Positions 3,072-20,716 of a stretch of DNA of 64,000 nt are shown one piece after another. Position 1 is the stretch's first letter. The number at the start of each line of letters is the position of its first letter. Made by a program: the position numbers and the translations under genes. Source of the stretch: an uncultured Burkholderiales bacterium (GTDB taxonomy: Bacteria; Pseudomonadota; Gammaproteobacteria; Burkholderiales; Burkholderiaceae_C); assembly GCA_945952065.1 (NCBI GenBank), contig CAMFGY010000011.1, positions 1 to 64,000 on the forward strand, given 5' to 3'. The notes under the pieces are model-generated. The model searched no databases, had not been told where the DNA came from, and saw only the letters and a list, made by a program, of their open reading frames with translations.

Positions 3072-4801
<1,730 letters not shown>

Positions 4802-4802
<1 letters not shown>

Positions 4803-5113
4803 CACAACGCTCCTTGCACCAGGCCACGGAAACCGTAGACGACGCGCTCGCCGGCCAGGTCCACCAACTCCACCGTGCGCTGCTGCCCGGGCTCAAAGCG
4901 CACCGCCAGGCCCGAGCCGATGTTCAGCCGCATGCCGCGCGCGGCGATGCGGTCGAAGCTCAGCGCCGCATTGGTCTCGGCAAAGTGGTAGTGCGAGCCC
5001 ACCTGGATGGGCCGGTCGCCGGTGTTGTGCACCGTCAAGCGCAGCGTGCGGCGGCCCGGGTTGAGCAGGTGCTCGCCCTCGTTCGTGAAGAGTTCGCCGG
5101 GGATCATGCTCAA
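4802..5113 (-). CDS. ureB: Urease beta subunit
   Basis: This 103-residue structural subunit packs with UreA and UreC to form the urease trimer. It begins MSMIPGE and contains the conserved [11 protein letters not shown] and GMRLNI segments. Its start overlaps the ureJ stop by 4 bases and its stop overlaps the ureC start, so ureJ-ureB-ureC are translationally coupled. Length and sequence are ordinary for the separate bacterial UreB. Confidence 0.97.
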
Positions 5114-6068: not shown

Positions 6069-6085
6069 AGCAAGCCCCGTGCCGC
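6069..6085 (-). promoter_or_regulatory. Sigma-54 promoter of the ure operon
   Basis: On the minus strand this reads GCGGCACGGGGCTTGCT. Against the consensus TGGCACG-N4-TTGCW only the first base differs, and the GG (-24) to GC (-12) distance is exactly 12. The predicted transcription start is near 6058, giving a leader of about 24 nt before the ureA ATG. This fits RpoN/NtrC control of urease, as known in other proteobacteria. Confidence 0.8.
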
Positions 6086-6135
6086 TTTTTTCACGCGGCC
6101 GCTGCGCGGGCACGAAACCTGCACGCGCTCTTGCC

Positions 6136-9100
6136 ATGAGCGATGCCGCCGCCACGCCCCCTCTTGAGAGCCCCGCGCCCCACAGCGCGCCGCAGCGCGT
6201 CATCAAGGTGCGCCGCGACTACAACGCCTGGGTGGCCCGCGAGACCCTGGAGGACTATGCGCTGCGCTACACGCCGCAGCGCTTTCGCCGCTGGTCCAAA
6301 TTCCGCGTTGCCAACACCGCCTTCGGCGCGGCCTCCTTCTTGATCCTGGAAGCGGTGGGCGCCACCTTGCTGCTGCAATACGGCTGGGCGAATGCCTGCT
6401 GGGCGATCTTGGCCACCGGCCTGATCATTTTTCTGGCGGGATGGCCCATCAGCGTTTACGCGGCCCGCTACGGCGTGGACATGGATTTGCTCACCCGCGG
6501 CGCCGGCTTTGGCTATATCGGCTCCACGCTGACCTCGCTGATCTACGCCAGCTTCACCTTCATCTTCTTCGCCCTCGAAGCCGCAGTCATGGCCTATGCG
6601 CTGGACCTGGCCCTGGACATCCCGCCGCGTTGGGGCTATCTCATTTGCGCGCTGGTGGTGATCCCCTGGGTGACGCATGGCGTGTCCTTGATCAGCCGCC
6701 TGCAATGGTTCACCCAGCCGCTGTGGCTCGTGATGTTGGTGCTGCCTTATGTCTTTGTGTGGCTGCGCGAGCCCGCCGCGTTTGCGGGCATCACGCACCA
6801 GATTGGCGCGCAATCGGGCAGCGCCGGTTTTGAGCTGCGTCACTTCGGTGCGGCGCTCACCGTTGGCATTGCCTTGATCACGCAAATGGGCGAGCAGGCC
6901 GACTATCTGCGCTTCATGCCGGCCCTGCCCGCTCAAGCCAGTGCCTCGCAAAAACGCCGCTGGTGGGCGGCCGTGCTGGTGGGCGGGCCGGGCTGGGTGC
7001 TCTTGGGCGTGTTGAAGATGTTGGGCGGCGCCTTGCTGGCCTTTTTGGCGCTCAGCCATGCGGTGCCGCCCGAGCGCGCGGTGGACCCGAACCAGATGTA
7101 TCTGGCTGCCTATGAATCGGTGTTCCCGCACTACGGCTGGGCGGTGGCCGCCACCGCGCTCTTTGTGGTGGTCTCGCAGCTGAAGATCAATGTCACCAAT
7201 GCCTATGCCGGCTCGCTGGCTTGGAGCAACTTCTTCTCGCGCCTGACGCACAGCCACCCCGGCCGGGTGGTGTGGGTTGTGTTCAACACCTTCATCGCTT
7301 TTTTGCTGATGGCCATGAATGTGTTTGAGGCGCTGGGCTGGGTGCTGGGGCTGTACGGCAATGTGGCCATCGCGTGGATGATGGCGGTGGTGGCCGACCT
7401 GCTGATCAACAAACCGCTGGGCTTATCGCCCCCGGGCATTGAATTCAAGCGCGCCCATTTGTACGACATCAATCCGGTGGGGGTGGGCGCCATGGCCCTG
7501 GCCTCGCTGCTTTCGGTCAGCGCGCATCTGGGCGCCTTCGGTGCCGCTGCGCAGGCCTTTTCGGCGCTGATCGCCATGGGCTGCGCCCTGCTGGCCTCGC
7601 CCCTGATCGCTTGGGCCACCGGCGGGCGCTACTACCTGGCGCGCAGCGCGCCGGCCGGCGCTACAGACGCTGACCCCGGCGACAGCCGCCTGCGCCTACG
7701 CCGCTGCGTGATCTGCGAACGCAGCTATGAAGGCCCCGATATGGCCCATTGCCCCGCCTATCAAGGCCCGATCTGCTCGCTGTGCTGCAGCCTGGACGCA
7801 CGATGCGGCGACTTGTGCAAGCCGCAAGCCAAGCTCGCCAGCCAATGGACGGGCGCTCTGCGCTGGCTCTTGCCGCGCAAGACCTGGCCCTTGTTGGACA
7901 AAGGCCTGAGTCACTACCTGCTCTTGATGAGCGTGGCGCTGCCGCTGCTCGCCGCTTTGTTTGCGCTGCTTTACAGCCAAGAATCGCGGGGCCTGCACGC
8001 CAGCACCGACGCCCTGGCTTTGCAAAGCCTGCGCGAAGGCTTCCTCAAGGCCTATGTGCTGCTGGGCGTGGTGAGCGGCATCGCCGCGTGGTGGTTGGTG
8101 CTCACCCATCAAAGCCGCGAGGTGGCCCAAGAAGAATCCAACCGCCAGACCCAAGCCTTGATGCGCGAGATTGCCTCGCACCAACGCACCGATGCGGCCC
8201 TGCAGGCCGCACGCGCCGTGGCCGAGCGCGCCCAGGCCGCCGCCGAGGCCGCCAACCAGGCCAAGAGCCGCTATGTCAGCGCCATCAGCCATGAGCTGCG
8301 CACCCCGCTCAACAGCATCTTGGGCTATGCCCAGCTGATGGCCGAAGACCCTGCGCAAGACCTGCCCCCCAGACGCCGCCAGGCGGTGCAAGTGATCAAG
8401 CGCAGCGGCGAGCATCTGCTGCAGCTGATCGACGGCACGCTGGACCTGGCACGCATCGAAGCCGGCAAGCTCAGCCTGGCCCTGGCCCCCATGCGCTTTG
8501 AAGATGGCCTGCATGAATTGGCCGAGATGTTTGAGCCCCAAGCGGCGGCCCGGGGCTTGCGCTTTTGCTTCGAGCCGCTGGGCGAGCTGCCGGTCTGGGT
8601 CCGGGCCGATGAGCGACGGCTGCGCCAGATCTTGATCAATCTGATTGGCAACGCCCTCAAATTCACCCAGCAGGGCGAAGTGCGCCTGCGGGTGCGCCAT
8701 GCGCAAGACATGGCCTGGATCGAGGTGCAAGACAGCGGCCCCGGCATCAGCGAGGCCGATCTGGCGCGCATCTTCGACCCCTTCACCCGCGCCAATAGCC
8801 GCGGCGAAACCGGTGCCGGTCTGGGCCTGAGCCTGGCCCAGATGCTGGTGGCGCTGATGGGGGGCGAGTTGACGGCTCGCAGCCGCCTGGGCGAAGGGTC
8901 TTGCTTCAGCGTCAAGCTCTTCCTGCCGGCTTTGGCGGAGGGCCCGGCCGCGCCCGGTGCGGCGGATGCGCGGCCGCGCTTGGGCTACGCGGGCGCGCGA
9001 CGCCGTGTGCTGCTGGTGGACAACGAAGAAGCCGACCGCCAGCTCTTGCAAGCGCTGCTGCAGCCCTTGGGCTTTGAGCTGCGCCTGGCCAGCAACGGCC

Positions 9101-9636
9101 ATGATGCGCTGGACTTGCTGGTCAGCGCCGGCTATCGGCCCGACGCGGTGCTGATGGACCTGGCCATGCCCGGCATGGATGGCTGGGAGACCCTGCGGCG
9201 CCTGCGCGCCCTGCCCTTGAGCCCACCCCCACGCGTGGCGATTGTGTCGGCCAATGCGTTTGAAAAAGGCCAGACCCATGCGCTGGGCATCGCAGCGGCC
9301 GACTTTATCACCAAGCCGGTGCGACACGCCGAACTGCTGGATTGGTTGGGCCAAGCCTTGCAACTGGAGTGGCTGACTGCATTGCCGCCCGCCGCCCAGG
9401 CCTTGGCCCCCAGCCGCAGCGCGGCGCCCCCCCGCCCGGCCTTGCCGGCTGAACCCCTGCCGGCTTTGCGCGAGGCGCTGCAGCTGGGCCATTACCGCGG
9501 CGTCTTGACCCAGCTCGACACCTTGGCGCGCTTGGCGCCCGATTGCCAGGCCTTCATCGAACAGCTGCGCGCCATGGCCGCGCAGTTTGAGTTTGAGGCC
9601 ATGGAACGCTTGTTGAACGGAGCCCCAGAGGCATGA
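6136..9636 (+). CDS. NCS1-permease/hybrid histidine kinase fusion
   Basis: A 1166-residue hybrid sensor. Residues about 20-500 form an NCS1 (purine/cytosine permease-like) transporter with about 12 membrane spans. A Cys-rich knuckle begins at Cys524 and Cys527 and contains nine Cys within about 40 residues. Two more membrane spans (about 585-670) and a coiled coil follow, then HisKA with His719 in SAISHELRTPLNS, an HATPase domain, a REC domain with Asp1008, and a helical C-terminal region that may be HPt-like. The 6136 ATG is favoured; an in-frame GTG at 6079 is possible and neither has a good ribosome site. It overlaps the next regulator by 4 bases. The permease part probably senses or transports a urea- or purine-related solute; that is inference from context. 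Confidence 0.9.
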   Translation: MSDAAATPPLESPAPHSAPQRVIKVRRDYNAWVARETLEDYALRYTPQRFRRWSKFRVANTAFGAASFLILEAVGATLLLQYGWANACWAILATGLIIFLAGWPISVYAARYGVDMDLLTRGAGFGYIGSTLTSLIYASFTFIFFALEAAVMAYALDLALDIPPRWGYLICALVVIPWVTHGVSLISRLQWFTQPLWLVMLVLPYVFVWLREPAAFAGITHQIGAQSGSAGFELRHFGAALTVGIALITQMGEQADYLRFMPALPAQASASQKRRWWAAVLVGGPGWVLLGVLKMLGGALLAFLALSHAVPPERAVDPNQMYLAAYESVFPHYGWAVAATALFVVVSQLKINVTNAYAGSLAWSNFFSRLTHSHPGRVVWVVFNTFIAFLLMAMNVFEALGWVLGLYGNVAIAWMMAVVADLLINKPLGLSPPGIEFKRAHLYDINPVGVGAMALASLLSVSAHLGAFGAAAQAFSALIAMGCALLASPLIAWATGGRYYLARSAPAGATDADPGDSRLRLRRCVICERSYEGPDMAHCPAYQGPICSLCCSLDARCGDLCKPQAKLASQWTGALRWLLPRKTWPLLDKGLSHYLLLMSVALPLLAALFALLYSQESRGLHASTDALALQSLREGFLKAYVLLGVVSGIAAWWLVLTHQSREVAQEESNRQTQALMREIASHQRTDAALQAARAVAERAQAAAEAANQAKSRYVSAISHELRTPLNSILGYAQLMAEDPAQDLPPRRRQAVQVIKRSGEHLLQLIDGTLDLARIEAGKLSLALAPMRFEDGLHELAEMFEPQAAARGLRFCFEPLGELPVWVRADERRLRQILINLIGNALKFTQQGEVRLRVRHAQDMAWIEVQDSGPGISEADLARIFDPFTRANSRGETGAGLGLSLAQMLVALMGGELTARSRLGEGSCFSVKLFLPALAEGPAAPGAADARPRLGYAGARRRVLLVDNEEADRQLLQALLQPLGFELRLASNGHDALDLLVSAGYRPDAVLMDLAMPGMDGWETLRRLRALPLSPPPRVAIVSANAFEKGQTHALGIAAADFITKPVRHAELLDWLGQALQLEWLTALPPAAQALAPSRSAAPPRPALPAEPLPALREALQLGHYRGVLTQLDTLARLAPDCQAFIEQLRAMAAQFEFEAMERLLNGAPEA

Positions 9637-10670
9637 ACCGCAACGCCCTTTTGCCCACAAGCCCCATCGGCAGCCCCAGCTACAGCCCGGCCTTCGCGCA
9701 GCAGCGCGGCGACCTGGTGCTGATCGTCGACGATGTGCCCGACAACCTGAACCTGCTGCATGACGCCTTGGAGGAGTCGGGCTACACCGTGCTGGTGGCC
9801 ACCAGTGGGGAGGCCGCCCTGAAACGCGCGCTGCAAGCCCAGCCCGACATCGTGCTTTTGGATGCAGTGATGCCGGGCCTGGACGGCTTTGAAGTGGCCC
9901 GCCGGCTGAAGGCCCAGGCTGCCACCGCACACATCCCCATCGTCTTCATGACCGGGCTGCGGGAGATCGAGCATTTGTTGGCCGCGCTCGAGGCGGGCGG
10001 GGTGGACTATGTGAGCAAACCCATACGCCCGAAAGAAGTGCTGGCACGCATGCAAGTGCATCTGCGCAGCGCTCGGCAAGCGCAAGGCGCGGTGCAAACC
10101 CGCCGTGCCTTGGATGCTTTTGGCTACGCCAGCATCACCGTGCGCGCCAGCGACGGCCGACTGATGTGGCAGACCCCTTTGGCGCGCGAACTGCTGCAAG
10201 CCTACTTTGGCAAGGTCGACACGCGGGCGCCGGAGCCGGTGCTCGACTGGCTGCAACGCCACGCGCCCGCTGCGCGTGAACAGCTGATCGAGCCGCCGCG
10301 ACTGCTGCTGGAGCGCGGCCCCCGGCGGCTGAGCTTTGCCCTGCATCAGCAACTGAGCGCCGAGAGCGCGGGCGACAGCGCCGAAGAAGCCGGCCATTGG
10401 TTGATCGTCATGCGCGAGCGCTCCGACGCCGCCATCATTGAAGCCATGGGCCTGAACTTTCGCCTCACCGCCCGCGAGGCCGAGGTCTTGTACTGGGTGA
10501 TCAAAGGCAAGATCAACCGCGACATTGCCGACATCTTGGGCGCCAGCCCCGCCACCGTCAAAAAACACCTGGAGCGTGTGTTTGCGAAGTTAGGCGTCGA
10601 AACCCGCACCGCCGCCGCCGCCATGGCCCTGGGCCGCATCCGCCAGCTGCATCCGCAGTGGGAGCTGTAA
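9633..10670 (+). CDS. REC-LuxR response regulator partner of the permease-kinase
   Basis: A 345-residue regulator. The receiver (28-150) has the acidic pocket DD at 33-34, phospho-acceptor Asp77 in IVLLDAVMPG and Lys129. A middle region of about 110 residues precedes a C-terminal LuxR/FixJ helix-turn-helix (LTAREAEVLYWVIKGKINRD onward). It is translationally coupled to the hybrid kinase (ATGA overlap), so the two form a pair. Likely targets are the neighbouring urt and perhaps ure genes; a TAC-N10-GTA dyad upstream of urtA is a candidate site. No direct evidence of targets. Confidence 0.9.
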   Translation: MNRNALLPTSPIGSPSYSPAFAQQRGDLVLIVDDVPDNLNLLHDALEESGYTVLVATSGEAALKRALQAQPDIVLLDAVMPGLDGFEVARRLKAQAATAHIPIVFMTGLREIEHLLAALEAGGVDYVSKPIRPKEVLARMQVHLRSARQAQGAVQTRRALDAFGYASITVRASDGRLMWQTPLARELLQAYFGKVDTRAPEPVLDWLQRHAPAAREQLIEPPRLLLERGPRRLSFALHQQLSAESAGDSAEEAGHWLIVMRERSDAAIIEAMGLNFRLTAREAEVLYWVIKGKINRDIADILGASPATVKKHLERVFAKLGVETRTAAAAMALGRIRQLHPQWEL

Positions 10671-10796
10671 TCGTCTGCGTTCAGAGACAGCCCAGGCAGT
10701 GCCCGCCTCGCCCCAGGCTGGTGCCCCAAGAAAAGGCGCTCGCCCCGCGCTGGGGCGCGCGCACAGGCCTGAGCGCCCTTGAAAAAGTTGCCGGCG

Positions 10797-10827
10797 AAAA
10801 AAAGCCCCAAGCTTTTGGCCTGGGGCT
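10797..10827 (-). terminator. Intrinsic terminator of the candidate sRNA / hydrolase
   Basis: AGCCCCA at 10803-10809 pairs with TGGGGCT at 10821-10827, with two further inner pairs past an A-C mismatch; the minus strand ends in seven T. Only the minus direction has the U tract. It would end both the candidate sRNA and any read-through from the alpha/beta hydrolase. Confidence 0.85.
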
Positions 10828-10869
10828 ATGAATCCACCGTGGGTACGGCGGAGGAGACAATCGATGACT
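10797..10869 (-). ncRNA. Candidate sigma-54-dependent small RNA (~73 nt)
   Basis: The predicted transcript starts at about 10869, 12 bases after the -12 element of the promoter at 10880-10896, and ends in the T run at 10797-10803. Within it, 10848-10841 pairs with 10836-10829 as an 8-bp stem with loop ACCC (UCCGCCGU/ACGGUGGA). Just 5' of this is an exposed UCUCCUC stretch complementary to Shine-Dalgarno sequences. The second hairpin is the terminator. No ORF of note. The arrangement matches NtrC/RpoN-driven regulatory RNAs such as NrsZ/NalA in Pseudomonas, but the sequence is not one I recognise. Confidence 0.6.
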
Positions 10870-10879
10870 TCTTGGCTTT

Positions 10880-10896
10880 AGCAGCATTCGTGCCAA
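10880..10896 (-). promoter_or_regulatory. Sigma-54 promoter in the regulator-hydrolase gap
   Basis: The minus strand reads TTGGCACGAATGCTGCT. It matches TGGCACG-N4-TTGCW at all but one base, with the required 12-base distance from -24 GG to -12 GC. It lies 20 bp beyond the stop of the leftward hydrolase and points away from that gene, into a short unit that ends in a terminator and contains no coding sequence. This is why I read it as an sRNA promoter. Confidence 0.7.
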
Positions 10897-10915: not shown

Positions 10916-12064
10916 TCAGCGGCGCCGCAGCTGGGCCAGGGTCCATTCGGGCAGCAGCTGCAAATAGCCGGGCACAAAGGCGGCCTCGGCCTCCCAGAGG
11001 TAGCGGGCGCTCATGGCCCAGGTCCAGTCCTCGGGGCGCTGGGTCTGGTAGTGCGCGGCCCGCAAGAGCTGGTGATCGCCGCCGGCAAACACTTTGACCG
11101 CATGGTGTTGCTGCACCAACACTTGGTTGGATAAATCAACAGGCCCGGCATGCAAGAGCTGGGCATAACGTTGCGCCGCAGCGGCGGCGTCCACATTCAG
11201 GTCTTGCGCCCCCCAGACGGCCAAGAACGGCGCCGTCGCCACATGCAAGCCCGCACTGGCATCGGCCCCGCGGTTCAGCGCCACAAAACGATAGCGCTCG
11301 GCGGACAGCCGCGCCGTGTTCGCCCCCGCAGGCGGCGGCTTGCGGGCCTGATAGTCGGCCAGCGCTTGGGCATAGTCGGCATAGCTCAGCGCCGGGTCGG
11401 GCTGGGGCGCCGCCCGCTGCCAAGCCAGCACGGCCTGCACCGCGGCCTCCTGCGTCGCCAGGCCTTCGCGGCGCAAGCGCTGGCGGGTGTAGTACTCGCC
11501 CTGAGAGGCCCAATCGACCGCGCCGCCCACGGTGATCAAAAAGGCCGGCTGCTGCGCCGCAGGCCATTGGGCCGCCTCGGCCAGCACCCAAGCGCCCTGT
11601 GAGAAGCCCAGCAAGCCCAGCCCACGCGCATCCACCTCGGGGCGTTGGGCCAGTGCAGCCATGGCGGCCGCCACTTCGTCGGCTCTTTGCTTCATGGTCT
11701 GGCCCTGCCAGCCCAAGTCCTCGCGGCGCTTGTTCAAGGGCAATGAAAGCCCGGTGCCCGGCTTGTCCCAGCTGAAGCAGGCGATGCCTGCTTTGAGAAA
11801 CGCGTTCATCAACAGGGCGTAGCGATCCAGCCCCCGGTCCTGCGGGCCATCGCCGTGCACAAACAAGACCACCGGATGCGGGCCCGGCCCCTCCGGCAAG
11901 AGCAGGCTGCCCGAGAGCTGATAGCCGTCCTGGCTGAAATTCAAGCCGATTTGCTGCTGCGCCTTCAAGTCATGCGCCGACAAGCGCTGCAGCAAAAACA
12001 CCATCAACACCAGGCACAAGGCCGCCAGGCCCAGCCAAATACTGCGTCGTCTCACTCGGTCCAT
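10916..12064 (-). CDS. Membrane-anchored or secreted alpha/beta hydrolase
   Basis: A 382-residue serine hydrolase. Residues 7-27 form a signal anchor. The oxyanion-hole segment FVHGDGP is at 68-74 and the nucleophile elbow GFSQG centres on Ser155; an acid in GAQDLNVD and a His in GGDHQLL complete a plausible triad. It resembles peptidase S9/dienelactone-hydrolase-like proteins; the substrate is unknown. It lies alone between the permease-kinase module and urtA and is divergent from urtA with about 210 bp between starts. Confidence 0.85.
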   Translation of the reverse strand: MDRVRRRSIWLGLAALCLVLMVFLLQRLSAHDLKAQQQIGLNFSQDGYQLSGSLLLPEGPGPHPVVLFVHGDGPQDRGLDRYALLMNAFLKAGIACFSWDKPGTGLSLPLNKRREDLGWQGQTMKQRADEVAAAMAALAQRPEVDARGLGLLGFSQGAWVLAEAAQWPAAQQPAFLITVGGAVDWASQGEYYTRQRLRREGLATQEAAVQAVLAWQRAAPQPDPALSYADYAQALADYQARKPPPAGANTARLSAERYRFVALNRGADASAGLHVATAPFLAVWGAQDLNVDAAAAAQRYAQLLHAGPVDLSNQVLVQQHHAVKVFAGGDHQLLRAAHYQTQRPEDWTWAMSARYLWEAEAAFVPGYLQLLPEWTLAQLRRR

Positions 12065-12274: not shown

Positions 12275-13564
12275 ATGCATCAAGACCAGCCCCGCCGCCG
12301 TGCGCTGAAGACCTTCAAGACCCTGGCCTTGGCCAGCGCCCTGGCCAGCCTGGGCTTCAGCGGCTTGAACGCCCAAGCCGCCGACACCATCAAGGTCGGC
12401 GTGTTGCACAGCCTCTCGGGCACCATGGCCATCTCGGAAACCGTGCTCAAGGACACGGTGCTGATGGCCATCGACGAGATCAACGCCAAGGGCGGCGTGC
12501 TAGGCAAAAAGCTGGAACCGGTGGTGGTGGACCCTGCCTCCAACTGGCCGCTGTTTGCGGAAAAGACCAAGCAGTTGCTGACGCAAGACAAGGTCTCGGT
12601 GATCTTTGGCTGCTGGACCTCGGTGTCGCGCAAATCGGTGCTGCCGGTGGTGGAAGAACTCAACGGCCTGCTCTTCTACCCGGTGCAGTACGAGGGCGAA
12701 GAGCTCAGCAAAAACGTCTTCTACACCGGCGCCGCGCCGAACCAGCAGGCCATCCCGGCGGTGGACTATTTGATGAGCAAGGACGGCGGTGCCGCCAAGC
12801 GCTGGGTGCTTTTGGGCACCGACTATGTCTACCCCCGCACCACCAACAAAATCTTGCGCGCCTATCTCAAAACCAAGGGCGTGAAGGATACGGACATCGA
12901 CGAGAAGTACACGCCCTTCGGGCATAGCGACTACCAAACCATCGTGGCCGACATCAAGAAGTTCTCGGCCGGTGGCAAGACGGCGGTGGTCTCCACCATC
13001 AACGGCGACTCCAATGTGCCCTTCTACAAAGAACTGGGTAATGCGGGGCTGAAGGCCAAGGACGTGCCGGTGGTGGCCTTCTCGGTCGGCGAAGAAGAGC
13101 TGCGCGGCGTGGACACCAAACCGCTGGTCGGCCACTTGGCGGCCTGGAACTACTTCATGTCCATCAAGAACCCGGCCAATACCGAGTTCATCAAGAAGTG
13201 GAGCGACTACGCCAAGGCCAAGGGTCTGGCCGGCCACAAAGACAAGCCGCTGACCAATGACCCCATGGAGGCCACTTACATCGGCATCCAGATGTGGAAG
13301 CAGGCGGTGGAGAAGGCCAAGAGCACCGAGGTGGACAAGGTCATTGCCGCCATGGCCGGCCAGACCTACACCGCGCCCTCGGGCATCACCTCCAAGATGG
13401 ACGAGAAGAACCACCATCTGCACAAATCGGTGTTCATCGGTGAGATCAAGGCGGACGGCCAGTTCAATGTGGTCTGGAAGACCCCCGCCCCGGTCAAGGC
13501 CAAGCCATGGAGCCCCTACATCGAAGGCAATGACAAAAAGCCCGATGAGCCGGTGAAGAAGTAA
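12275..13564 (+). CDS. urtA: Urea ABC transporter substrate-binding protein
   Basis: UrtA is the periplasmic receptor of the high-affinity urea importer. The ATG at 12275 follows AGGAG by 7 bases and starts a 429-residue protein with an export signal (Arg-rich start, cleavage near AQAAD). The mature part begins TIKVGVLHSLSGTMAISE, typical of the UrtA branch of branched-chain amino-acid type binding proteins, with FGCWTSVSRKSVLPV and LLFYPVQYEG also diagnostic. It is the first gene of urtABCDE. Confidence 0.96.
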   Translation: MHQDQPRRRALKTFKTLALASALASLGFSGLNAQAADTIKVGVLHSLSGTMAISETVLKDTVLMAIDEINAKGGVLGKKLEPVVVDPASNWPLFAEKTKQLLTQDKVSVIFGCWTSVSRKSVLPVVEELNGLLFYPVQYEGEELSKNVFYTGAAPNQQAIPAVDYLMSKDGGAAKRWVLLGTDYVYPRTTNKILRAYLKTKGVKDTDIDEKYTPFGHSDYQTIVADIKKFSAGGKTAVVSTINGDSNVPFYKELGNAGLKAKDVPVVAFSVGEEELRGVDTKPLVGHLAAWNYFMSIKNPANTEFIKKWSDYAKAKGLAGHKDKPLTNDPMEATYIGIQMWKQAVEKAKSTEVDKVIAAMAGQTYTAPSGITSKMDEKNHHLHKSVFIGEIKADGQFNVVWKTPAPVKAKPWSPYIEGNDKKPDEPVKK

Positions 13565-19246: not shown

Positions 19247-20464
19247 TCAAACCATCAAGCCAAAGGGGTCGTCCACCGAATGCGCCGGCTGGCTGAACCA
19301 GCGCGGGCCTTGCGCCGTCATGTAGACATGGTCCTCATGCCGGATGCCGAACTCGCCCGGCACACAAATCATCGGCTCATTGCTGAAGCACATGCCCACG
19401 TCCAACGGGGTCTCGTCGTTGTCGACCAGATAGGGCCACTCATGGATGTCCAAGCCGCAGCCATGGCCGGTGCGGTGCGGCAGGCCCGGCAGCTCGTAAC
19501 GCGGCCCCAGGCCTGCGGCGGCGATGACGCGGCGCGCCGCGCGGTCCACCTCGCGGCAGGGCACGCCCAGCTGCGCTGCTTCAAAGGCCGCCGCCTGAGC
19601 GGCCTTTTCCAGGTTCCAGATTTCGCGTTGGCGGGCATTGGCCTCGCCGAACACATAGGTGCGGGTGATGTCCGACATATAGCCGTGCACCAGGCAGCCG
19701 GTGTCGATCAACACCACATCGCCCTCTTTCAAACGCTGCGCCTCCTTGACCCCATGCGGGAAGGAGCTGGCCACGCCAAAAAGCACGATGCAAAAGTAGG
19801 AACCAGGGGCGCCCACTTTGCGGTGCGCGCTGGCAATGAAGGCCTCGACCTCAGTGCTGCTGATGCCCTCATGCAGCATGCTGGCCGTGGCGCGGTGCAC
19901 CGCCAGGGTCATGTCATGGGCGCGCTGCATCAGCGCGATCTCGGCGCTGGACTTGCGCATGCGCAAAGTGGCCGTCACGGGCTTGGCGTTCACCCAAGCG
20001 ATGCCCTCGCGCTGAAAACCATCCACCACGAAGAGCGGCGTGTCCTCGCTCACCGCGATGCGAGCACCGGCTGGCACACCCAAGTCGGCCAGCACCTGAC
20101 GGCACAGCGCATAGGGGCTCTCATGCTCATGCCAGAGGTGCAGCGCGCCCGGCAGCTGCATGTACTCACGCAGCGTGCCTTCTTCAAACGCCGGGGCGAT
20201 GTACTGCGGCTCGCCCTGGGCGGGGATGATCAGGCCCACCAAGCGCTCGCTGGGGTGCCAGACCGTGCCGCTGAAGTAACGCATATTCGTGCCGGCATGG
20301 GCATACAAGGCCGCGATGCCCTGGGCCTGCATCAGGCGCTGCGCGGCTTGCAAGCGCGCGCGGTATTCGTCCAGGCCGATGGGCTCGGCGCCCACCATCA
20401 TGTTGCTCAAGCTGTCCAGCGCCTGCTGGGCGCTCGCGCCCCCCACACCTACCGTTCTTGCCAT
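19247..20464 (-). CDS. M24-family metallopeptidase (Xaa-Pro aminopeptidase/prolidase type)
   Basis: A 405-residue pita-bread enzyme with a creatinase-type N-terminal domain (1-165) and a C-terminal catalytic domain. The five metal ligands Asp254, Asp265, His334, Glu363 and Glu377 are all present, so it should be a di-metal peptidase rather than creatinase, which lacks these ligands. The ribosome site is GAGGAG, 8-9 bases before the ATG. It lies upstream of ureD on the same strand; a dipeptide-derived nitrogen role is possible but inferred. Confidence 0.85.
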   Translation of the reverse strand: MARTVGVGGASAQQALDSLSNMMVGAEPIGLDEYRARLQAAQRLMQAQGIAALYAHAGTNMRYFSGTVWHPSERLVGLIIPAQGEPQYIAPAFEEGTLREYMQLPGALHLWHEHESPYALCRQVLADLGVPAGARIAVSEDTPLFVVDGFQREGIAWVNAKPVTATLRMRKSSAEIALMQRAHDMTLAVHRATASMLHEGISSTEVEAFIASAHRKVGAPGSYFCIVLFGVASSFPHGVKEAQRLKEGDVVLIDTGCLVHGYMSDITRTYVFGEANARQREIWNLEKAAQAAAFEAAQLGVPCREVDRAARRVIAAAGLGPRYELPGLPHRTGHGCGLDIHEWPYLVDNDETPLDVGMCFSNEPMICVPGEFGIRHEDHVYMTAQGPRWFSQPAHSVDDPFGLMV

Positions 20465-20716
20465 CTTTGTGTCTCCTCGCTTGGAACCCGCCCAAACGCT
20501 GATATCGCTTGCCGCGGATTAATAAATATATTTACAGCATTCTAAGCACTGCCGGCAGCGCCGACCCCGTGCAACTGACTTCAAGCCGTCACACACGCTG
20601 ACTAGACTGCCGGCCTCGCGCGCGCAAGGCGCACCTGCCCGCCCCGCCTCGCGCGACACATCATCCGCTCAAATGCGCCGTTACCGCACAACCCTCGTCT
20701 GACCGACTGCCCTCGC

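Follow-up and report, generated by a model that had tools for sequence, protein, structure and literature searches.

A predicted sigma-54-dependent small RNA of the RF02278 family in the urea locus of a Burkholderiales bacterium

In the genome of an uncultured Burkholderiales bacterium, a stretch of 64,000 nucleotides (called the window in the following) contains, on the minus strand between positions 10896 and 10797, a sigma-54-type promoter followed by an RNA that is predicted to comprise 73 nt, to form two hairpins and to end in a terminator with U7. We consider it quite probable that this element is a paralogue of the "double-hairpin" sRNAs (RF02278) whose transcription depends on sigma-54, and that it would be driven by NtrC, respond to nitrogen and act as an anti-ribosome-site RNA. 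Observed in the sequences are the element itself, its fit to the family, an invariant promoter, an enrichment of half-sites downstream of the gene, a match to the promoter of the P-II operon and a recurring position in the urea locus. The original prediction for this segment did not recognize the RF02278 family and overlooked both the other copy in this genome and the downstream half-sites. All features are listed in Table 1.

Table 1. Features of the window that are discussed in the text (positions refer to the window).
Feature	Position	Strand	Remarks
Sigma-54-type promoter TTGGCACGAATGCTGC	10881..10896	-	-24 TGGCACG, -12 CTGC; exact match
Predicted 73-nt sRNA	10797..10869	-	RF02278 match over 10797-10859; fold z -4.9
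Anti-Shine-Dalgarno segment UGUCUCCUCC	10850..10859	-	UGUCUCC unpaired, last UCC within stem 1
Hairpin 1, 8-bp stem, loop ACCC	10833..10852	-	Fold; 2/6 consensus pairs changed on both sides
Intrinsic terminator, 10-bp stem and U7	10797..10827	-	Fold; 5/8 consensus pairs changed on both sides
Weak candidate NtrC site GGCACCAGCCTGGGGCG	10709..10725	-	Downstream of terminator; 9/12 letters, shuffle P 0.27
Hybrid histidine kinase	6079..9636	+	Orthologue adjoins the regulator in the same 5/20 regions
Response regulator with LuxR-type HTH	9633..10670	+	Convergent with sRNA; orthologue downstream of sRNA in 5/20 regions
S33-type hydrolase	10916..12064	-	Just upstream of sRNA, same strand; ORF, Pfam Hydrolase_4
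urtA-like periplasmic binding protein	12275..13564	+	urtBCDE-like ORFs then follow
M24 peptidase	19247..20464	-	Ribosome site 20470-20478; lies upstream of ureD

A double-hairpin RNA and its family

The promoter reads TTGGCACG-AATG-CTGC (10896-10881, minus strand) and differs, with correct spacing, by one mismatch (C for T) from YTGGCACGNNNNTTGC, which we take to be the sigma-54 consensus, just as had been claimed. Counting 12 nt from the C of the -12 element places the inferred +1 near 10869, from where 73 nt extend to the end of the U7 tract. Folding of this RNA resulted in -31.4 kcal/mol (z -4.9) compared with a mean of -17.4 for 200 dinucleotide shuffles, none of which was as low (0/200), and the predicted fold confirmed the earlier description of a unit of about 73 nt with an 8-bp stem, an ACCC loop and a strong U7 terminator. 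The proposed exposure of a UCUCCUC stretch has to be narrowed: UUGUCUCC is unpaired in the predicted fold, but the adjoining UCC sits in the first stem. With regard to coding potential, the ATG behind GGAGGAGACA on the plus strand opens only 5 codons; on the minus strand a frame exists behind the stop of the hydrolase gene, and the leaders diverge among the copies.

A comparison with the Rfam family RF02278 ("Betaproteobacteria toxic sRNA") yielded 49.8 bits (E 2.5e-9) for positions 10859-10797 over the full length of the model (1-64). As this score is 0.2 bits under the curated cut-off of 50 bits, the window copy is absent from the gathering-threshold listing. All parts of the family are present, namely the UGUCUCCUCC 5' segment, hairpin 1, the GGAUUC spacer and the terminator hairpin with the U tract, and the window RNA is treated as a putative member in a working sense; the fit supports the proposal that the segment would encode an sRNA. 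Of the copies in the genus, 10/14 of the sigma-54 type and 28/37 overall pass the cut-off; the window copy is among the four of the sigma-54 type below it. Members of the family are present in 18/18 genomes of the genus and in 0/14 control genomes, and across the order they were found at E <= 0.001 in 40 of 60 sampled genomes, our own included (24/60 over the cut-off).

The same genome contains a second copy (G000:C18:24083-24145, L114) with 61.3 bits and without a sigma-54 motif; copies of this kind are referred to as copy B. In relatives, several copies without the motif show TTGCAG-N18-TAAAAT-like strings farther upstream, which suggests that these copies may be made from a longer precursor, by analogy to the sRNA S17 discussed below. 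Five genomes of the genus (L109-L113) contain a third, weaker match of 41-45 bits, in which UUGUCUCCUC is present and hairpin 1 differs, and two genomes of one other family (G041 and G465) contain nine and eight matches, some of them a few hundred bases apart, which corresponds to a large expansion.

Covariation was analyzed in an alignment of 34 of the 36 distinct RNAs (24 of the sigma-54 type and 10 others; the copy-B rows L019 and L040 were omitted). In this alignment 95.8% of the cells are paired and 56 cells are changed on both sides compared with 15.4 in shuffles, and neither value was reached by any of 500 shuffles. Changes on both sides affect 7/14 pairs, a value attained by 97/500 shuffles, the value for further pair types was attained by 18/500, and sliding the pairing partners lowers every covariation measure. 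The UGUCUCCUCC segment is invariant in 34/34 aligned copies, which had been collected with a pattern close to the same segment.

The promoter string on its own is at chance level in the window, with 27 matches to the motif with at most one mismatch compared with 28.1 expected, and was ruled out as stand-alone evidence. Only two of the matches are exact, and the other one, TGGCACGGCACTTGC at 411-425 on the plus strand near a tRNA (200-281), may be a chance occurrence. Such numbers would also fit a terminator that happens to lie behind a random sigma-54-like string, but the family match, the covariation and the conservation have already refuted this explanation, the probability of which we regard as virtually nil. 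We take the element as real despite the chance-level motif because the promoter is conserved and both hairpins covary.

The sigma-54 promoter and the urea locus in related genomes

Promoter and both hairpins are kept in relatives, as the original prediction had expected. The 11 positions of the motif TGGCACG-N4-CTGC are invariant in 23/23 non-redundant copies, compared with a mean of 0.17 bits per column over the 55 columns between -60 and -6. TGGCAC and GTCTCCTCC have a spacing of 35-37 in 22 copies and of 42 in one, and the predicted RNA has a length of 70-73 nt in 22/23 copies and of 81 nt in the remaining one. This set consists of 21 of the 23 copies of a pattern scan of contigs, the window copy and L004; the scan copies L088 and L090 duplicate the first 60 nt of other copies. 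The scan itself returned 34 stretches, 23 of them with a full sRNA and titled Burkholderiales, Burkholderiaceae, Roseateles, Paucibacter, Methylibium or Rubrivivax. The other 11 stretches (Halomonas, Prolixibacteraceae, Ratteibacteria, Kiritimatiellales, Nitrosomonadales, Melghirimyces, Gemmatimonadetes, Actinacidiphila, Parabacteroides, Myxococcales and Algoriphagus) revealed no two-hairpin sRNA on reading and were dropped as chance matches; the Kiritimatiellales stretch (L089) has a terminator-like hairpin, but no first hairpin.

For the scan copies the invariance is partly built in because the search pattern held most of the motif. The copies found by BLAST without the pattern show the same motif wherever the upstream region aligned, and the G at the seventh position and the C before TGC are also invariant, though the pattern did not demand them. 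A copy of the sigma-54 type is present in 14/18 genomes of the genus; the four genomes without it are G014, which is 79% complete, and G013, G016 and G017, which are 91-99% complete. In the family, the pattern was found in 14/399 genomes and 6/141 genera, and a reversed control pattern in none.

Outside the family, the 60-genome sample of the order was searched for a sigma-54 motif within 90 nt upstream of the RF02278 copies, and none of the 43 copies of other families had one. The sample comprised 71 matches, 69 of them outside our own genome, and 49 loci or stretches were read with the weaker matches mostly excluded; 43 of these fit the core pattern, and the six that did not, including the one from another genus of the same family, were not counted. 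Therefore, judged from the sequences at hand, the Roseateles/Paucibacter lineage seems to have acquired the sigma-54 promoter. RpoN is encoded in our own genome (one PF04552 match, 215.2 bits).

The original prediction had placed the sRNA between a kinase/regulator pair and urtABCDE. The names urtC, urtD and urtE are probable assignments by gene position; Pfam covered the first two urt genes. To compare the gene context, proteins of the window were searched by tblastn in 20 regions, of which 19 were about 20 kb long and one 9.8 kb. An orthologue of urtA is located within 10 kb of the sRNA and oriented away from it in 8/20 regions (L308, L311, L312 and L314-L318, of which L318 belongs to another genus), and in five of these eight (L311, L314, L316-L318) the kinase and regulator genes are located on the other side of the sRNA, so that the described arrangement recurs in 5/20 other genomes. 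In four others of the 20 (L306, L307, L309 and L310) an M24 orthologue is located directly upstream of the sRNA on the same strand. Neither urtA nor M24 was found near the sRNA in L313 and in seven regions of other genera (L319-L325). As urtA or M24 is near the copy in 12/20 regions, the sRNA is located in the urea locus more often than anywhere else within the genus. An apparent absence of shared gene context, which resulted from clustering of flanks by mechanical ORFs, was overturned by the tblastn comparison.

Since the sRNA gene follows the S33-type hydrolase gene on the same strand and the -24 element lies about 20 nt past the stop, one could also think of the RNA as only the 3' untranslated end of the hydrolase mRNA with its terminator, possibly a 3'-UTR-derived RNA without a promoter of its own; the short S17 is cut by RNase E from a longer RNA according to passages of PMC11722255. 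However, the upstream neighbor varies (M24 in four regions, and in L316 the hydrolase orthologue is 7.6 kb away), whereas promoter and RNA stay, and we regard this origin as very improbable.

A further Rfam match in the window, to 5_ureB_sRNA (RF02514, 108.6 bits), is located at 4340-4641 on the plus strand and antisense to the urease alpha gene (3072-4805, minus strand). This model may just track conserved coding sequence.

NtrC-type half-sites beyond the terminator

Directly behind the terminator, in a zone that extends from 105 to 205 nt downstream of the -24 element, GCACC/GGTGC ranks first in enrichment among 512 5-mer pairs. We take this pair to be the NtrC half-site, with TGCACC-N5-GGTGCA as the full site. 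The zone contains 40 half-sites in 23 loci compared with 11.9 expected (P about 1e-10, which like all P values for these half-sites is descriptive because the zone was picked after seeing the marked sequences), with at least two in 14/23 loci (2.05 expected), one in three and none in six. Reduced to 21 non-homologous downstream flanks, one per group, 33 half-sites were counted compared with 10.7 expected, and the maximum in 20,000 random placements was 24. In the 200 nt upstream of the sRNA promoter there is no enrichment of half-sites. Copy B and the P-II operon, used for comparison, serve as firmer controls than the P values of the zone. At copy B, which has no sigma-54 motif, the half-sites are near background (11 in 22 loci).

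Full-site matches with a shuffle P <= 0.05 are present in 8/23 downstream windows, 2/23 upstream windows and 1/22 and 1/23 far windows. The best ones, with 12/12 and 11/12 letters, were found in L092 and L105, the flanks of which are related and count as one. Among 13 facing pairs (GGTGC then GCACC), eight are spaced 10-11 or 21-22 nt and the rest 3, 31, 31, 42 and 49 nt; this spacing, which was noticed afterwards, suggests helical phasing.

The window copy has one half-site in the zone, at +171, and its closest relative (L104) has none. GGCACCAGCCTGGGGCG is kept as a weak candidate site only because of its location in the zone that is enriched in the relatives. Searches for single NtrC sites were rejected as evidence, as the window contains 75 matches with up to three mismatches compared with 72.6 expected by chance. 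In our own genome, 29 places with at most one mismatch to the NtrC site were found compared with six for the reversed pattern, and NtrC itself is encoded there (678.8 bits, cut-off 558.6).

The comparison with the P-II operon comprised 13 loci from 13 genomes (L152-L164), which are probably glnK operons. The promoter TGGCACGRAA[GT]CTGC is located 820-905 nt upstream of the P-II gene in 13/13 of them, with 40 half-sites in the 200 nt before the promoter and few after it. Thus, sRNA and P-II operon have the same promoter motif and half-site, with the half-sites on opposite sides. The lineage-invariant promoter and its identity with that of the P-II (glnK-type) operon of the genus strengthen the proposal that the sRNA would be sigma-54-driven and linked to nitrogen. 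At 17 other P-II loci (L135-L151, another P-II type) the promoter was not seen, but those on the minus strand were left unturned and these loci are not a control.

It is conceivable that a sigma-54-driven RF02278 sRNA responds to an activator other than NtrC and consequently to a signal other than nitrogen. Our own genome contains eight strong matches to the NtrC model, one over the cut-off and seven more with 301-378 bits, and therefore other activators exist; the own copy is without a convincing NtrC site, and another activator with a similar site could be involved. On the other hand, the promoter of the P-II (glnK-type) operon has the same motif together with the half-sites, the related flanks of L092 and L105 (together one case) match TGCACC-N5-GGTGCA with 12/12 and 11/12 letters downstream of the sRNA, and the position in the urea locus also points to nitrogen. 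A different activator thus seems unlikely to us. Quite unlikely is also that the downstream half-sites serve the promoter of a neighboring gene and that the activator of the sRNA binds elsewhere. Urea and glutamine genes are frequently controlled through NtrC sites, and the annotation covered only some of the neighboring genes. However, the enrichment appears in 21 mutually non-homologous flanks, all pooled, no other sigma-54 motif of the searched forms is located within about 500 nt downstream on either strand in the 23 loci, and the 200 nt upstream are unenriched. We prefer the reading that NtrC would act on the sRNA promoter from the downstream half-sites.

Known relatives, predicted targets and a possible nitrogen switch

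Intergenic sRNAs that depend on RpoN and NtrC are known from Pseudomonas, namely NrsZ and NalA. The comparison with these two, which the original prediction had drawn, holds as an analogy only; no sequence relationship is claimed.

The closest known systems belong to RF02278 itself. In Burkholderia cenocepacia, NcS03, NcS05, NcS27 and NcS62 are members of this family (PMC5688073, PMC4603805, PMC10987360) and consist, like the window RNA, of two hairpins, a CU-rich 5' segment and a terminator; they are predicted to cover ribosome sites. Overexpression of NcS27 slows growth, and this sRNA has been linked to carbon and amino-acid use (PMC5688073). The NcS sRNAs accumulate in starvation and in glucose medium, and the passages of PMC5688073, PMC4603805 and PMC10987360 on this subject state no nitrogen switch. 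Three of the four share an upstream motif (PMC5688073, Fig. S3), but, in contrast to the case described here, neither "sigma-54" nor "RpoN" appears in the main text of PMC5688073. In Herbaspirillum seropedicae, the family is represented by four expressed copies (Hsnc059, 063, 086 and 107; PMC7011215), and the main text of this source is, in contrast to the case described here, without "sigma 54", "RpoN" or "NtrC".

S17 of Bordetella pertussis shares the 5' anti-ribosome-site segment (Site 1 of S17) with the window RNA (PMC11722255). According to passages of this source, S17 represses a target directly, as base changes on both partners demonstrated, 70 of the genes that rise without S17 have complementary sites, and in E. 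coli S17 was not toxic to the same degree. Unlike the window RNA, S17 has a housekeeping-sigma promoter and is cut from a 190-nt precursor by RNase E (PMC11722255). The link to sigma-54 also runs the other way: an activator of sigma-54 is repressed by S17, but the window sRNA would itself be driven by sigma-54. By analogy to such members, which act at ribosome sites (PMC11722255; PMC5688073), the pairing proposed by the original prediction gains support. In Enterobacteriaceae, an sRNA from the 3' UTR of the glutamine synthetase mRNA is described that adjusts carbon versus nitrogen metabolism under nitrogen limitation (PMC9731577); compared by its description, it differs from the window RNA in being released from an mRNA 3' end and in its target sucA.

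In our own genome, AGGAGACA occurs 22 times at a distance of 3-11 nt before an ATG, with one match being the complement of the sRNA and one place counted twice. The original prediction had singled out the M24-peptidase gene upstream of ureD, and GAGGAGACA indeed precedes its start codon (20464) at 20478-20470, but with 22 matches and no recurrence it is no special target: the site is present in our own genome, and the gene was not found as a recurring target in a partial comparison with other genomes. This comparison comprised 94 proteins and 80 stretches from up to five other genomes at a time, to which the own-genome matches were added. All matches of G003 (19/19), G007 (24/24, 23 stretches) and G010 (27/27) were used, a part of those of G012 (7 of 28, 8 listed), G004 (2 of 40) and G009 (2 of 32), and none of G015 (0 of 30).

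Within this partial comparison, NAD-glutamate dehydrogenase and a TctC receptor recur as predicted targets in four genomes each, and CstA, a TonB-type receptor, a lysine-aminomutase-like protein and a TetR regulator in three each, where counts with G004, G009 and some of G012 are biased because these stretches were picked for string resemblance or nearness to copy B, and the grouping of the proteins at more than 40% identity may lump paralogues (TctC, TonB). A porin also recurs in four genomes, two of them hand-picked and our own not among them. The recurrence may reflect strong ribosome sites, because AGGAGACA itself is simply one. Both kinds of copies share the anti-ribosome-site segment and therefore would differ in when they are made.

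Taken together, we suppose that under nitrogen limitation phosphorylated NtrC would bind to the arrays of half-sites downstream of the sRNA gene, which are found about 100 bp behind the transcription start in most relatives, and that the bound NtrC would loop back and open the sigma-54 polymerase. The resulting RNA of about 73 nt is predicted to end at its own terminator, and its 5' UGUCUCC would pair, probably with Hfq, with AGGAGACA-type ribosome sites and lower translation in the way that others have demonstrated for a family member. Repression of NAD-glutamate dehydrogenase, CstA and the TctC-type receptor would damp the use of carbon and glutamate, and less glutamate breakdown and carbon import would make sense in nitrogen shortage. 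We lean towards the broader view that in Roseateles/Paucibacter one RF02278 paralogue has been captured by NtrC and sigma-54 and has settled in the urea locus with a natural enhancer beyond its own terminator, so that the gene would lie between promoter and enhancer, in a compact arrangement by which nitrogen would switch the catabolism of carbon and glutamate. To our knowledge, a natural enhancer downstream of a sigma-54 gene is unusual.

The family and its action on ribosome sites are known, and the lineage-specific sigma-54 copy appears to be new. No report of a sigma-54-driven RF02278 member was found in the literature searched, which was largely open-access and did not extend to Fig. S3 of PMC5688073. 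The control of RF02278 sRNAs is described as largely open in passages on B. cenocepacia (PMC5688073); the sigma-54 copy would supply a defined signal, and its lineage would allow an internal comparison, as the other copy is present in the same genome. Finally, a porin gene with an identical AGGAGACATCGATATG start is located about 2.8 kb from copy B in four relatives (L250, L283, L287 and L290; Pfam for L250 only), which places a predicted target beside the sRNA.
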